From Bacillota bacterium (GTDB lineage: Bacteria; Bacillota; Dethiobacteria; Dethiobacterales; Dethiobacteraceae): DNA of 41,816 nucleotides. The notes beneath the pieces were generated by a model, which was not told where the DNA came from, did no database searches, and saw only the letters and a list, made by a program, of their open reading frames with translations. The stretch is taken from contig JAAYMK010000018.1 of the NCBI GenBank assembly GCA_012521405.1, positions 1 to 41,816 on the forward strand, written 5' to 3'. Below are positions 180 to 20,003 of the stretch, in pieces (position 1 is the stretch's first letter; each line of letters starts with the position of its first letter). The translations under genes and the position numbers were made by a program.

Positions 180-476
180 TATTAACACCTTAATTGTTTA
201 AAGTGTTTAAACCGAAGAGCAAGAGTAGTAGGAATAACCGCCTGCAGATAGAGAGCCGCTGGGGGTGGAAATGCGGTTGCAGAGTTATTCTGAATGGACT
301 TGCGAGGGAAGCCCGAAATCTGTCGAGAGTAGGCGCTTACGGGGAGCCTGCCCGTTATCAGGGGGATGCATATGATGGTATGCAAAAGTGAGCGGGTGTA
401 GCTATGCACCAATGAGGGTGGTACCGCAGAAGCTTAAGCTTTTGTCCCTATTTTCCGGGACAAAAGCTTTTTTTTC
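180..476 (+). promoter_or_regulatory. T-box leader, tryptophan specific
   Basis: Transcriptional T-box riboswitch that reads uncharged tRNA. Stem I begins near 216 with the AAGAGCAAGAGTAGTA-type segment. The specifier loop contains GAATGGAC at 292-299, giving specifier codon TGG (295-297, Trp). The conserved T-box AATGAGGGTGGTACCGC is at 411-427 and a terminator follows at 436-475. The Trp specifier matches the trp genes downstream. In known T-boxes, uncharged tRNA pairs with the specifier and T-box bulge and stabilises the antiterminator, so the operon would be induced by tryptophan starvation. Confidence 0.93.
436..475 (+). terminator. T-box regulated intrinsic terminator
   Basis: A 13-bp stem (436-448 with 457-469), loop 449-456 and a run of T at 470-475. 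It directly follows the T-box sequence, as expected for the OFF-state hairpin. Confidence 0.9.
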
Positions 477-9441: not shown

Positions 9442-9825
9442 GTTATGTTTTTATCCGTTGAGGTTTGTTTAAGGTAAAAAAGCAAGCTTTTTGGTAAAGA
9501 AAGGTAAAGCATTTTGTGTTTACTTTTTGGAGGATTTGTATATTAAAAGGCGAATTAATGCTATGTAGCGCCAACCTGTTGCCCCAGGCCGCGAAAAATT
9601 CCATTTAAATGAGCAAATCTTTGCTTAATCGTATAATATGCATTAAATGGTATATAATATTTTAAGCAAACGGGTCGGGATAAACTTTAGCTTTAAAGAA
9701 GGAATCAACCAAGCAATGTAGAAATAAATGGGTACAGTTTATTGGACGCTGAATGCATCCGGCAAAGGAGGAATAGGTTCCAGGAACGGGTTGGAGAGAG
9801 GCTAAACATGCGGCTATGACAATGT
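9442..9825 (+). promoter_or_regulatory. Long leader upstream of dnaG-rpoD, promoter-proximal part
   Basis: There is no gene here. AT-rich TATAAT-like boxes occur at 9632-9637 and 9653-9658, but neither has a good -35 box at 17 bases. Downstream are hairpins AATAAA (9723-9728)/TTTATT (9738-9743) and GTTC/GAAC around 9777-9787, a near-palindromic segment around ATGCAT (9753-9758), and the segment 9794-9802 that can form an antiterminator with 9832-9840. It matches no riboswitch class I can recognise. Confidence 0.45.
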
Positions 9826-9858
9826 GACCTCGTCTCTCTTTCAGGGATGAGGTCTTTT
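9826..9858 (+). terminator. Candidate attenuator terminator before dnaG
   Basis: An 11-bp stem pairs 9826-9836 with 9844-9854, beginning GACCTCGTC and ending GATGAGGTC, followed by TTTT. The ascending arm includes bases (9832-9836) that can pair instead with 9798-9802, inside a competing 9-bp helix between 9794-9802 and 9832-9840. This is mutually exclusive folding typical of attenuators. dnaG starts about 134 bases later. Confidence 0.6.
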
Positions 9859-9991
9859 CAGTGATTAAGAGCTGTAAATAGAATTTTGCAGGATTTTGTC
9901 CAATAATGGCGAATAGATAAGCTCTAGCGGTTCTACTTAAGCTAAAAAGGTCCAAACCCGTGTCATGGCTGCAAAGCGCAGGGTGATAAGG

Positions 9992-11791
9992 ATGATGGGA
10001 AGGCTTCCCGCTGAATTTATTGATGAAGTACGTGCTCGCTTCGACATTGTCGAGGTGGTTTCGCAATATGTGCAATTGAAAAGATCCGGCCGCAACTATT
10101 TTGGTCTTTGTCCATTTCATAATGAAAAAACTCCTTCTTTCAGTGTTTCCCAGGAAAAACAGATTTTTCACTGTTTTGGTTGCGGTGAAGGCGGTAATGT
10201 CTATACTTTTCTCATGAAAATTGAAGGTTTAACCTTTACCGAAGTCGTGCTGGAGCTGGCCAGGAGGGCGGGTGTGCCGCTGCCCAGACAGCAGGATACA
10301 CCCTGGGAGCGCAAAAAACTGCGGGCCAGGGAACGGTTGTATAAAATTATGGAGCTTGCTCATGACTATTACCAATACCAGCTGCAGCAACCGGCGGGGC
10401 GGAAAGCATTAGAGTACCTGTACCGCCGTGGGCTTAAGCCGGAAATCATCAAGCAATTTGGGCTTGGCTATGCGCCGGACAGCTGGCATGCAGTGAAAAA
10501 TTTGCTGATAAAAAAAGGTTTTACGGAAAAAGAATTGCTAACTGTCGGGTTGCTTGGTGAAAGCTCCGGTAGAACTTATGACCGCTTTCGCAACCGCATC
10601 ATTTTTCCCATTCACGATCAAAGCGGTCAGGTGATTGCTTTTGGCGGTCGTACCTTGGGCGACGGTCAACCGAAATATTTAAATTCTCCGGAAACACCCC
10701 TTTTTAATAAAAGCAAAACTTTATATGCTTTACATCTGGCCCGTCAAGCCGTGCGCCAACAAAACTCTGTCATCATTTTTGAAGGTTACATGGATGTGAT
10801 CGCCGCCCATCAGGCCGGTATTAATCATGCCGTGGCAACTCTGGGGACTTCCTTAACGGAAACACAGGCCAGAATCCTGCGCAATCAGGCGGAAGAAGTG
10901 ATTATCGTTTATGATGCCGATGCCGCCGGTCAGGCAGCAACTTGGCGTGGTTTAGAGATCTTGCGCCATGCCGGATGTTTGGTCAAAGTTGGCCGTTTAC
11001 CACAAGGTCTCGATCCTGATGATTATCTTGGTCGTTATGGGGCGGAAACTTTTCAAAGTAAAATTATCAATCATGCCCTGCTTTTAACTGATTATCAGCT
11101 GTTACGATTAACAGAAATTTATAACCCGGAAAACGATAAAGAACGCCTTTTACTTTATCGTAGAATTATTGAAATATTAAATTCCATAGATAATGCCATG
11201 GAGCAAGAGGATTATTTGCAAAAAACGGCGAAATTATTAAACCTACCGGCTGAGGTAATTCGTCAGGAGTTGGAGAAAGCAAAAAGATCCTCTCCGCAGA
11301 CTCGGCCTCTACGGAAGATAAATACAGTTCCCCAAGTAAGTACATTGCAAAAAGCTTTGCTGCAAATCCTTGCGCTTTGGGCGCAATATCCACAGTTTAT
11401 TGCCGATACTAAAGAACAGCTGCAGGCAGAAGATATTCCGCAAGAATTCAAAACACCACTTAAAACTGCAGCGGCAGCCGGTGCGGAATTAACTCCGGCC
11501 ATGCTCTATGATGTACTGCCTGCAGAAAAATATCGTCTCCTTACCAGCCGTTTATTTGTCCATGAAGAACTTGATGAGAAAAGCGCCCGTAAAGCGCTGG
11601 ATGATTGTATCAGGTATGTTAAATGCGCCCGCATTGCCAAAAGACGAAAAGAAATTGAGGAACAAATATCTAAATTGGATGCCGGTACTGCGAAAGGGGA
11701 AATTGCTAAGTTGTCAAAGGAATGGCTAGCTTTGCGTAAAATGGAAGAAGAAATAAATCAAGCCAGGGAAGGAGGGAAAGGTGTTGGATAA
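9992..11791 (+). CDS. dnaG: DNA primase (DnaG)
   Basis: Makes RNA primers at the replication fork. It is 599 aa from ATG 9992. This start has AGGGTGA 5 bases upstream, or 8 bases to the adjacent ATG 9995. An ATG at 9965 is in frame with a weaker site. CHC2 zinc finger: Cys40-x2-His43 and Cys61-x2-Cys64. The primase core and Toprim domain show [17 protein letters not shown] and [14 protein letters not shown] with the metal-binding acidic residues. The C-terminal part is a DnaB-binding helical domain. The gene runs directly into rpoD, the classical macromolecular synthesis arrangement. Confidence 0.96.
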
Positions 11792-12902
11792 GATGGAAAA
11801 AGATAAAAAACTGAAAAAGATTCGTGAACAGCTGGTTAAGCAAGGGAAAAAGAAAGGTTATATCACTTATAAAGAAATTATAGAACTGCTTCAGAATATG
11901 GATTTATCTCCGGACGAGATTGATGAGTTTTATGATCACCTCTCCCGCCTTGGTATTGACGTAATCGATGAAGACGCCGGCAAAGACGAGCAGGTACTTG
12001 AAGATGTTGACGAGCTCAAAGATGATGTAGAAAATGTGGAAGACCTGGATGATTTGTCTTCCCTTGAGGGCGTCAATGTTAATGACCCGGTTCGTATGTA
12101 TTTAAAAGAAATTGGTAAAATCCCGCTTTTAACTCCCGAAGAGGAGATTGAGCTTGCCATACGGATGGAACAAGGCGATGAAGATGCCAAGCGCGCTTTA
12201 GCCGAAGCCAATTTGCGGCTTGTGGTCAGTATTGCCAAAAAATATGTAGGCCGCGGTATGCTTTTCCTCGATTTGATCCAGGAAGGCAATTTAGGCTTGA
12301 TTAAAGCAGTGGAAAAATTTGATTACCGTAAAGGTTTTAAATTCAGTACCTATGCCACATGGTGGATTCGCCAAGCCATTACTCGTGCCATTGCAGATCA
12401 GGCCAGAACTATTCGCATTCCTGTCCATATGGTGGAAACTATCAATAAACTGATTCGTGTTTCGCGGCAATTGGTACAGGAACTGGGCAGAGAACCTACG
12501 CCGGAAGAAATAGCCGAAGTTATGAATATTTCTGAAGAAAAAGTGCGTGAAATTCTGAAAATTGCCCAGGAACCTGTTTCCTTGGAGACACCTATCGGGG
12601 AGGAAGATGATTCTCATTTGGGAGATTTTATTGAGGATCAGGACGTACAGGCACCGGCCGAAGCGGCGGCGTTTGAGTTGCTGAAAGAACAGCTTGATGA
12701 TGTCTTGGAGACGCTTACTCCGCGTGAGAAAAAAGTTTTAAAACTCCGTTTCGGTCTCGATGACGGCCGGTCTCGGACTTTAGAAGAAGTAGGGCAAGTT
12801 TTTGGCGTAACACGGGAGCGTATTCGTCAAATTGAAGCCAAGGCTTTGCGCAAACTGCGCCATCCTATGCGCAGTAAGCGCCTGAAGGACTATCTGGAGT
12901 AA
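11781..12902 (+). CDS. rpoD: Primary sigma factor RpoD (SigA)
   Basis: Vegetative sigma-70 factor of 373 aa. Region 1.1 is short and followed by an acidic linker (about 55-90). Region 1.2 begins [21 protein letters not shown]. Region 2 has [24 protein letters not shown] and [13 protein letters not shown] (the -10 recognition helix). Region 3 has [13 protein letters not shown]. Region 4.2 has [24 protein letters not shown]. The GTG at 11781 follows AGGAGGG and overlaps dnaG by 11 bases. ATG 11793 is in frame but too far from that site. Confidence 0.96.
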
Positions 12903-12988: not shown

Positions 12989-13063
12989 TCCTCGATAGCT
13001 CAACGGTAGAGCAACCGGCTGTTAACCGGTAGGTTGTAGGTTCGAATCCTACTCGGGGAGCCA
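12989..13063 (+). tRNA. tRNA-Asn (GTT)
   Basis: Full cloverleaf with acceptor TCCTCGA/TCGGGGA, anticodon loop CTGTTAA giving GTT, T-loop GGTTCGAATCC and encoded CCA at 13061-13063. First gene of a four-tRNA cluster. Confidence 0.95.
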
Positions 13064-13064
13064 A

Positions 13065-13140
13065 GGGCCCATAGCTCAACGGTTAGAGCTGCCGGCTCAT
13101 AACCGGTAGGTTCTAGGTTCGAATCCTAGTGGGCCCACCA
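13065..13140 (+). tRNA. tRNA with CAT anticodon, probably Met
   Basis: Acceptor GGGCCCA/TGGGCCC, anticodon loop CTCATAA giving CAT, encoded CCA. A CAT anticodon can mean elongator Met or, if lysidine-modified, Ile2 (AUA). The body does not settle this by eye. It is not initiator-like, because the acceptor starts with a G-C pair. Confidence 0.9.
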
Positions 13141-13153
13141 ACATCACTAATAC

Positions 13154-13228
13154 GGCCCCTTGGTCAAGCGGTTAAGACACCGCCCTTTCACGGCGGTAAC
13201 GCGGGTTCGAGTCCCGCAGGGGTCACCA
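13154..13228 (+). tRNA. tRNA-Glu (TTC)
   Basis: Acceptor GGCCCCT/AGGGGTC, anticodon loop CTTTCAC giving TTC, T-arm GCGGGTTCGAGTCCCGC, encoded CCA. It directly abuts the next tRNA. Confidence 0.95.
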
Positions 13229-13304
13229 GGGCGATTAGCTCAGCTGGGAGAGCGCCTGCCTTACAAGCAGGAAGTCAGTGGTTCGAGCCCACTATCGCCC
13301 ACCA
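13229..13304 (+). tRNA. tRNA-Val (TAC)
   Basis: Acceptor GGGCGAT/ATCGCCC, anticodon loop CTTACAA giving TAC, T-loop GGTTCGAGCCC, encoded CCA. It starts on the base after the CCA of tRNA-Glu, so processing must separate the two. Confidence 0.95.
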
Positions 13305-14287: not shown

Positions 14288-14678
14288 GGACAATCCCCTT
14301 CCTTGGTTAAATCATACTGAAAATGCAATTCTTTGTAAACACATAATCATGTTTAGCTCCACTTGCAAAAAACATTGGGCCACAAAGAAACAGGGGAAAT
14401 TTTTCGCGAAAAAAAGTGCAGAAAAAGTTAGACAATAGAAAATCTTTGCATTAAAAAATATCTTTGCTGAAGGATTCTTCATCTTTGTAGCGAATTGTAA
14501 TATATAGTTTTGGGCACCTGGGAATTTATCCATAGTTTACTATCGATTTTGCCCATAAGACTGCCGCTAAATTGCAGCAGTGCAGATATTTATGGGGAAA
14601 TTAGTTTTTCAACAGTTTACCGGTCCGCCGTACCGGGGGGTTACCTGTTGACAGAATTAATTGAAAAGGAGGAAAGTA
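14288..14678 (+). promoter_or_regulatory. Structured leader before the corrinoid protein gene
   Basis: This 390-base gap holds no gene. Its second half can fold into consecutive hairpins: TGGGCA (14511-14516)/TGCCCA (14550-14555) enclosing ATAG (14532-14535)/CTAT (14540-14543), a CTGC...GCAG stem near 14561-14577, and CCGGT (14620-14624)/ACCGG (14632-14636). A TAATAT box is near 14498. There is no clear cobalamin-riboswitch B12 box. The first half should hold the promoter of the divergent minus-strand pair. Confidence 0.4.
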
Positions 14679-16849: not shown

Positions 16850-17563
16850 ATGAAACTCACTCCGCGTCTGCAAGCCATTGCAGAGTTGATTCCTCCCGGC
16901 AGTGTTGTTGCCGATATTGGAACTGATCATGCTTATTTACCGGTTTATTTACTGCAGGAACAGATTTGCGGGCAGGCAATTGCCGCCGATGTAAAAGAAG
17001 CGCCCCTTGCCCAGGCACAGGAGACCGTTGCCGCATTTAACTGTCACCAGAAAATTGATTTGCGATTGGGTGACGGTCTTGATGTACTTAAAGAGGAAGA
17101 TGGTGTAGATACCATTGTTATCGCAGGCCTAGGGGGACGGACAATTGTGCGGATTTTAGCAAAGGGGCAAGAAAAGCTTAAAGGCATAAAAAGGCTAATT
17201 TTACAGCCTATGAATGAATCAGGCTGCTTACGTTTATATCTGGCTAAAAACGGGTTCGCCATTGTGGCGGAAAAATTGGTGACAGAAGGAAAACGCCTTT
17301 ATGAAATAATTTTAGCCATGCCGGGACAGGAACGGGAAAAAGATCCCTTTCGCCTTGCTTTAGGGCCGCGGCTTTTAGAAAATAATCCTCCGCTTCTACC
17401 GGTATTACTGCAGGAAAAAATACGTAAACTGCGTATAGTCTATCGCAGCCTGCAGCAGGCACAAAAGGAAGATGTGTCAGAAAAATTAGATAAAGTGCAA
17501 AAGGAATTAACATGTCTGCAGGAGGTGCTAGAGCATGCCGGTAAGCGTACAGATGCTTACTAA
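16850..17563 (+). CDS. trmK: tRNA (adenine(22)-N1)-methyltransferase (TrmK)
   Basis: SAM-dependent methyltransferase that makes m1A22 in tRNA, 237 aa. The SAM site VVADIGTDHAYLPVYLL is at about 18-34, AADVKEAPLAQA is motif II, RLGDGLDVL follows, then IVIAGLGGRTIVRIL (NxxGMGG-like) and LILQPMNESGCLRLYL. The C-terminal helical hairpin is typical of YqfN/TrmK. ATG 16850 follows GGCGGAGGTGATT. It overlaps the next gene by 29 bases. The trmK-nif3 order is the usual one downstream of rpoD, here separated from it by about 4 kb. Confidence 0.93.
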   Translation: MKLTPRLQAIAELIPPGSVVADIGTDHAYLPVYLLQEQICGQAIAADVKEAPLAQAQETVAAFNCHQKIDLRLGDGLDVLKEEDGVDTIVIAGLGGRTIVRILAKGQEKLKGIKRLILQPMNESGCLRLYLAKNGFAIVAEKLVTEGKRLYEIILAMPGQEREKDPFRLALGPRLLENNPPLLPVLLQEKIRKLRIVYRSLQQAQKEDVSEKLDKVQKELTCLQEVLEHAGKRTDAY

Positions 17564-19555: not shown

Positions 19556-20003
19556 GCAATGCAAAGCAGGTCGGATAGTCGCGGGGTAATGCTTTACTCC
19601 GAGGAAAGTCCGAGCTCCATAGGGCAGGGTGCTGGGTAACGCCCAGTGAGGGTGACCTCAAGGAAAGTGCCACAGAAATTATACCGCAAACCGGAGGTCA
19701 GATGTCAGAGGTCGGTTTACCGGAACTATGTAGGAATCGCTGTTTGGATTTTATCGAGACTGATGCTGACATCTGATCTCCGGTTTGTAAGGGTGAAATG
19801 GTGCGGTAAGAGCGCACCAGCGGTCAGGTGACTGGCCGGCTAGGTAAACCCCACCTGGAGCAAGACCAAATAGGGGAGAGATGACGTTGCCCGCCGATCT
19901 CCCGGGTTAGGTCGCTAGAGGTGTTAGGCAACTAACATCCCAGAGAGATGACTATCGCCCCGGAAGGGGAACAGAACTCGGCTTACAGACCTGCTTTGCA
20001 TAA
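19556..20003 (+). ncRNA. rnpB: RNase P RNA, type A, with expanded P12
   Basis: Catalytic RNA that matures tRNA 5' ends. The ends pair: GCAAAGCAGGTC (19561-19572) with GACCTGCTTTGC (19988-19999). Conserved cores are GAGGAAAGTCCGAGCTCC (19601-19618), CACAGAAAT-ATACCGC before P12, AAGGGTGAAATGGTGCGGTAAGAG after it, GGAGCAAGACCAAATAGGG (type A signature), CAGAACTCGGCTTACAGACC at the 3' end. P12 is unusual: 22-bp arms 19687-19708 and 19766-19787 match with one G-U wobble and enclose a 57-base loop, so the RNA is about 445 nt. Confidence 0.96.

Follow-up and report, generated by a model that had tools for sequence, protein, structure and literature searches.

A probable clade-specific transcription attenuator in front of the dnaG-rpoD operon of Dethiobacteria

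Described systems and the Dethiobacteria dnaG leader

In E. coli and other Gram-negatives, the rpsU-dnaG-rpoD operon carries an intrinsic terminator before dnaG (PMC2824700). The dnaG-sigA operon of Bacillus subtilis has several promoters with 7 start sites (PMC2824700), and yqxD is listed as sigma-A/H (PMC12456014). The STAB-SD of cry3A is a Shine-Dalgarno (SD)-like sequence that does not initiate translation and is able to bind the 16S 3′ end (PMC4113751). Here we analyzed a window (the whole 41,816-nucleotide stretch of contig JAAYMK010000018.1, from a member of the Dethiobacteraceae) in which response regulator and histidine kinase genes are followed by a dnaG leader containing an intrinsic terminator (Table 1).

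Terminator restraint of dnaG-rpoD is an old theme, since Gram-negative operons also have a terminator before dnaG (PMC2824700), and this tempers the view of an earlier note on this DNA that such control of primase and the main sigma factor would be unusual. As in E. coli, an intrinsic terminator would limit transcription into dnaG-rpoD in Dethiobacteria, but the E. coli terminator lies between rpsU and dnaG, whereas the Dethiobacteria locus lacks rpsU. To our knowledge, the two terminators have no sequence in common and their mechanisms are unrelated. The B. subtilis operon is likewise served by several promoters, including a sigma-H promoter, and we know of no attenuator of this kind in it.

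The dnaG leader resembles T-box leaders (RF00230), in which an upstream strand captures the same terminator 5′ arm (ACCUCGUCUCU), but dnaG-rpoD is neither a tRNA-charging nor an amino-acid operon. T-box membership was rejected, as the RF00230 covariance model did not match the window's dnaG leader at E-values up to 5, nor those of 15 relatives at the gathering score, while detecting the T-box at 206–452 of the same window; the UGGNACC bulge before the antiterminator arm, present in six T-box matches (see below), was found in none of the dnaG leaders. Likewise, no dnaG leader of the window or of these relatives scored above the gathering threshold for the cis-regulatory families of Rfam 15, which led us to reject a known riboswitch and agrees with the earlier note, in which no known class had been recognized. 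Neither the Dethiobacteria terminator sequence, nor the antiterminator strand, nor their class-wide distribution was found in the literature searched. Based on sequence comparison, we judge the attenuator to be real, undescribed, restricted to this clade, and of a known general kind.

Table 1 Features of the dnaG-rpoD leader and of the surrounding window (window coordinates).
Feature	Position	Strand	Evidence and remarks
T-box leader	206–452		108 bits
Sigma-H-type promoter 1, AGGATT-N15-GAATT	9531–9556	+	Pattern scan; upstream of vegetative promoter
Vegetative-type promoter block TCGTATAATATGCATTAAATGGTATATAATAT	9629–9660	+	Family alignment; related block in other families
Sigma-H-type promoter 2, AGGAAT-N15-GAAAT	9700–9725	+	Alignment, pattern scan; best-conserved part of supposed structured leader
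SD-like motif AAAGGAGGAA	9764–9773	+	Family alignment; no start codon at usable distance
Antiterminator 5′ strand GAGAGAGGC	9794–9802	+	Direct reading, family alignment, pairing test
Terminator 5′ arm GACCTCGTCTC	9826–9836	+	Terminator scan, arm comparison; near-invariant over class
Antiterminator 3′ strand GTCTCTCTT	9832–9840	+	Direct reading, pairing test; overlaps terminator 5′ arm
Terminator 3′ arm GGGATGAGGTC	9844–9854	+	Terminator scan, arm comparison
Terminator T tract TTTT	9855–9858	+	Terminator scan
Sigma-H-type promoter 3, AGGATT-N15-GAATA	9890–9915	+	Pattern scan; downstream of terminator
dnaG (DNA primase)	9995–11791	+	TIGR01391, 498 bits
rpoD (main sigma factor)	11781–12902	+	NF006666, 644 bits
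Cluster of four tRNA genes	12989–13304		After rpoD
RNase P RNA, class A	19563–20001		326 bits

Terminator and competing helix in the window

Direct reading of the window confirmed the pairing of 9826–9836 with 9844–9854, followed by TTTT, and a terminator scan made independently of the earlier note returned exactly this site (9826–9858). The terminator is well above chance, since just 6 of 1000 dinucleotide-shuffled versions of the intergenic region contained an 11-bp stem followed by TTTT. A competing helix of 9 bp, two of them G-U, joins 9794–9802 to 9832–9840, and the two structures are mutually exclusive because both use 9832–9836. The earlier note, which had proposed the stem, the helix, and their incompatibility, was thus exact in each of these coordinates. 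A general-purpose genome terminator was rejected, as the genome carries a single copy by pattern.

Taken alone, the competing helix in the window is at chance level: with a pyrimidine-rich terminator arm, 26.9% of shuffles give a pairing at least as long, and comparison with shuffles by energy yields p = 0.33. The window by itself therefore offers a good terminator and an unremarkable alternative fold, and the significance of the competing helix comes from conservation across genomes rather than from this single sequence. Forbidding the terminator 3′ arm costs ~11 kcal/mol of predicted folding energy in the window (median roughly 8 in the class), and in most leaders the predicted stability of the terminator far exceeds that of the alternative fold. 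This stability and the chance-level helix would both fit a fixed partial terminator, which would lower expression from upstream promoters without switching and next to which the purine strand would be incidental; the comparative evidence that makes this reading unlikely is presented below.

The leader upstream of the terminator did not bear out the ~160 structured bases described in the earlier note. The region 9660–9860 folds no better than shuffles (z = −0.41) and its conserved stretch at 9700–9725 corresponds to a sigma-H-type promoter, so that a structured aptamer was rejected. Alignment of dnaG upstream regions across the window's family revealed that conserved blocks precede the terminator and that one follows it, and the terminator was the sole structure found by RNAalifold on the family alignment. 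By eye, a hairpin of GUUUGACG with CGUCAGGC can be seen upstream of the SD-like motif in several family members. The riboswitch-style architecture suggested earlier thus survives in its exclusive folds, its lack of an Rfam class, and its conservation before dnaG-rpoD over most of the class, but not in its aptamer-like leader.

Conservation of the device across Dethiobacteria

A covariance model of the antiterminator strand and terminator, searched in 98 genomes of the class, matched 28 of them once each, always before dnaG except for one match whose contig ends first. A scan of ~85,000 genomes with the terminator pattern alone returned 36 loci. Thirty of them, from Dethiobacteria-type metagenome-assembled genomes, are dnaG leaders or copies truncated by an end, and the other six are ordinary T-boxes bearing a GTGGTACCGCG-like signature. 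Reading further dnaG upstream regions of the class revealed divergent versions in families f3, f4, f5, f6, and f7, for a set of 51 distinct leaders with the terminator in six families (f1, the window's family, 17; f3, 7; f4, 5; f5, 18; f6, 3; f7, 1). All 51 have the terminator between promoter and dnaG, i.e., the predicted intrinsic terminator lies between promoter and first gene as in an attenuator. Two sampled leaders of the class, L091 (f2) and L113 (f3), lack the device.

Across the 51 leaders, the terminator 5′ arm (CCUCGUCUCU) has accumulated 13 substitutions vs. 70 in the 3′ arm, of which 29 fall in one loop-side column and 41 in the rest. Equal drift of both arms would be expected for a plain terminator, while a 5′ arm far less variable than the 3′ arm is expected if the former pairs with two partners. 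An upstream purine strand complementary to the 5′ arm recurs, with a sequence and position that vary by family. Most members of the window's family have AGAGAGGC 23–31 nt before the arm, and this pairing holds in 100% of cells across the family, compared to 37–83% when slid.

Strict two-sided covariation is scarce overall, and the window's family offers none because its antiterminator is invariant. Three lineages with a changed antiterminator strand have kept the pairing: in L046 AGAGAC pairs with GUCUCU, in L051 AGAGAGAC pairs with GUCUCUC with a G-U turned into A-U, and in L049 AGAGGGG pairs with a changed arm, CGUCCCUCU. The covariation analysis proposed in the earlier note therefore gives a mixed answer, in that the window's family shows little two-sided covariation, but arm asymmetry and changed-partner lineages support the pairing.

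Family f5 shows a different putative antiterminator, RCGAGG-n-AAUGUC, which pairs with CCUCGU and the stretch before it in 82.8% of cells vs. 35–45% when slid; its covariation control, which takes no account of relatedness, is weak, with 37 to 331 of 500 shuffles reaching the observed values, and when arms were swapped between leaders the AUGUC strand had no preference for its own partner. A Spo0A-box reading of AUGUCGAAU in this family was set aside because AUGUCGAAU can pair in the f5 antiterminator, a pairing weakly supported by swapping. Outside the window's family as a whole, own arms pair better than swapped ones (p = 0.007, in a test that ignores relatedness). By family, and again ignoring relatedness, the same holds for f5 with f7 (p = 0.016) and for f3 (p = 0.017), in which the partner strand is poorly defined, while the result for f4 was not significant.

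One member of the window's family, L009 (1294–1387), is a natural deletion experiment: it keeps the terminator, with a changed 5′ arm (CGUUUCUC), and lacks both the SD-like motif and the antiterminator strand. It is the sole family member seen without the strand. A terminator persisting without an antiterminator strand is also what a fixed partial terminator would produce, yet such an element would not account for a near-invariant 5′ arm next to a drifting 3′ arm, for the invariance of AGAGAGGC in the window's family, or for the own-arm preference in swapping, and we consider it unlikely. Instead, conservation, arm asymmetry, and own-arm preference, with two-sided covariation scarce, suggest that the exclusive upstream helix has been kept by evolution, and it is this sequence conservation across genomes that, in our judgment, makes the attenuator-like pair of folds real.

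Promoters, SD-like motif, and proposed mechanism

We scanned the window for AGGAWW-N15-GAAW, which we take to be the sigma-H consensus, and found 10 sites against 2.67 expected, including three located ≤470 bp from dnaG. These three (9531, 9700, and 9890) match the consensus and are predicted sigma-H promoters given this excess over chance, their conservation, and the presence in the genome of sigH (TIGR02859, 372 bits, above cut-off). The window sites have the same form as listed sigma-H promoters of C. difficile, for example that of fusA1 (PMC7438776). The earlier reading depended on promoters not being confined to 9860–9992; one lies there, at 9890–9915, and others lie upstream of the terminator.

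A sigma-H-type site precedes the terminator in 45 of the 48 class leaders parsed automatically. In the window's family, 13 leaders have a second one after it, as do 4 of 5 in f4, and this site would bypass the terminator by virtue of its downstream position; none of the f5 leaders has a sigma-H-type match downstream of the terminator. Among 27 dnaG upstream regions sampled from other classes of the phylum, 15 fit the strict sigma-H-type pattern, and only one (L134) has a terminator between this site and dnaG, with an unrelated sequence. Sigma-H-type promoters before dnaG are thus widespread (15/27), whereas the terminator is not (1/27).

Additional promoter-like elements were noted in the course of these comparisons. 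The vegetative-type block at 9629–9660 includes two TATAAT hexamers 21 bp apart and no good −35 element, and is more conserved than a plain promoter requires, with even the spacer conserved through the family. Another sigma-H-type site (AGGATTATTTGCAAAAAACGGCGAAAT, 11208–11234) lies within dnaG at a distance of about 570 bp from rpoD; a sigma-H promoter inside dnaG is also known in B. subtilis. Further sigma-H-type sites on the + strand lie at 14471, 15389, 16775, and 16794 of the window; the genes that follow them include those for a corrinoid protein and an NCS2 permease, as well as an ORF, at 16850, with no family match. Finally, positions 1501–1539 of L002 (G000:C56) resemble the 9890–9915 promoter region (GCAGGTTTTTGTGCAATATTAGCGAAAT) without being a strict AGGA match, and the next gene presumably encodes a diadenylate cyclase (CdaA) and is followed by a YbbR-like gene.

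The conserved combination of promoter and terminator could also delimit a gene for a stable trans-acting RNA of ~190 nt, with dnaG relying chiefly on the downstream sigma-H-type promoter or on read-through. The complementarity of the pyrimidine-rich arm to SD-like sequences and the promoter that follows the terminator in the majority of f1 and f4 leaders would be consistent with such a gene. We nonetheless regard it as improbable, as the element always occurs before dnaG and once per genome, diverges strongly between families outside the arm, has this arm locked in a stem, and lacks a sigma-H-type match after the terminator in f5.

Most leaders include a purine motif such as AAAGGAGG or AGGAGGU roughly 50–75 nt before the terminator arm, and in the window the SD-like motif contains an exact AAAGGAGG. 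In the window's family, this motif is separate from the antiterminator strand. By eye, no start codon was found at a usable distance after it in f1, and the leaders of f4 or f3 have none in common. The motif is predicted to bind the 16S tail with high affinity, yet 2 of 60 scrambled oligonucleotides are equally good, so that ribosome binding at the motif is treated here as hypothetical and a specific anti-SD affinity, while suggestive, was not retained.

An SD-like motif in most leaders raises the question of leader-peptide attenuation, in which translation of a short leader ORF would choose between the folds, as might ORFs that start in the leaders of L073, L086, and L099 and cross the terminator, and an AUG within the AUGUCGAAU stretch of many f5 leaders. 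This scenario was rejected for want of a shared start codon (see above) and appears very improbable, since in addition the arm is read in a different frame in L099 than in L073 and L086, and the AUGUC of f5 can be part of a helix. The ORFs of these three leaders stop right after the T tract (e.g., MLGMFHGLVRKVKADELMPASSLRDEVF).

Like the cry3A STAB-SD, the motif is an SD-like leader sequence without a translation start (with start codons here judged by eye), and the ability of the former to bind the 16S 3′ end without starting translation (PMC4113751), together with the exact AAAGGAGG of the window, could point to an mRNA stabilizer unrelated to the terminator. We give little credence to this alternative: a motif preceding the terminator would protect just the read-through or short RNA, and the two equivalent scrambles leave it doubtful that the SD interaction is specific relative to other C-rich oligonucleotides. 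The motif further differs from STAB-SD in being coupled to a terminator, and 30S binding to it is hypothetical.

Taken together, these results suggest that a clade-specific transcription attenuator probably controls the dnaG-rpoD operon in Dethiobacteria. We infer termination itself, the switching, its direction, and its trigger as follows. Transcripts initiated from the vegetative promoter (about 9665) or from the 9700–9725 sigma-H-type promoter would run into the terminator at 9826–9858, unless 9794–9802 captures 9832–9840 first, in which case the terminator would be blocked and transcription would read through into dnaG and rpoD. Termination is probably the default, given that the terminator is predicted to be more stable by ~11 kcal/mol in the window. 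A factor stabilizing or exposing the purine strand would increase read-through. Such a switching factor, whether a protein, an RNA, or a 30S subunit, would most likely bind at the SD-like motif, which lies about 50–75 nt upstream of the arm. When sigma-H is active, the promoter after the terminator would yield operon transcripts escaping the attenuator. Since the terminator arm resembles an anti-SD sequence, one can envision a ribosome-sensing attenuator, in which a free 30S subunit at the SD-like motif would alter the capture of the terminator arm by the purine strand without any leader peptide, although we hold this specific version to be doubtful.

By setting how much primase and main sigma factor is supplied, the operon couples replication to transcription, and if ribosome sensing were true this supply would directly follow translation capacity. 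The occurrence of the device once per genome and before dnaG alone, in the class genomes searched, suggests a local and perhaps autogenous control. Sigma-H-type promoters on either side of the terminator would allow the cell to follow different rules during growth and when sporulation begins. Overall, the dnaG leader of Dethiobacteria would add an undescribed element to the repertoire of cis-regulatory RNAs.
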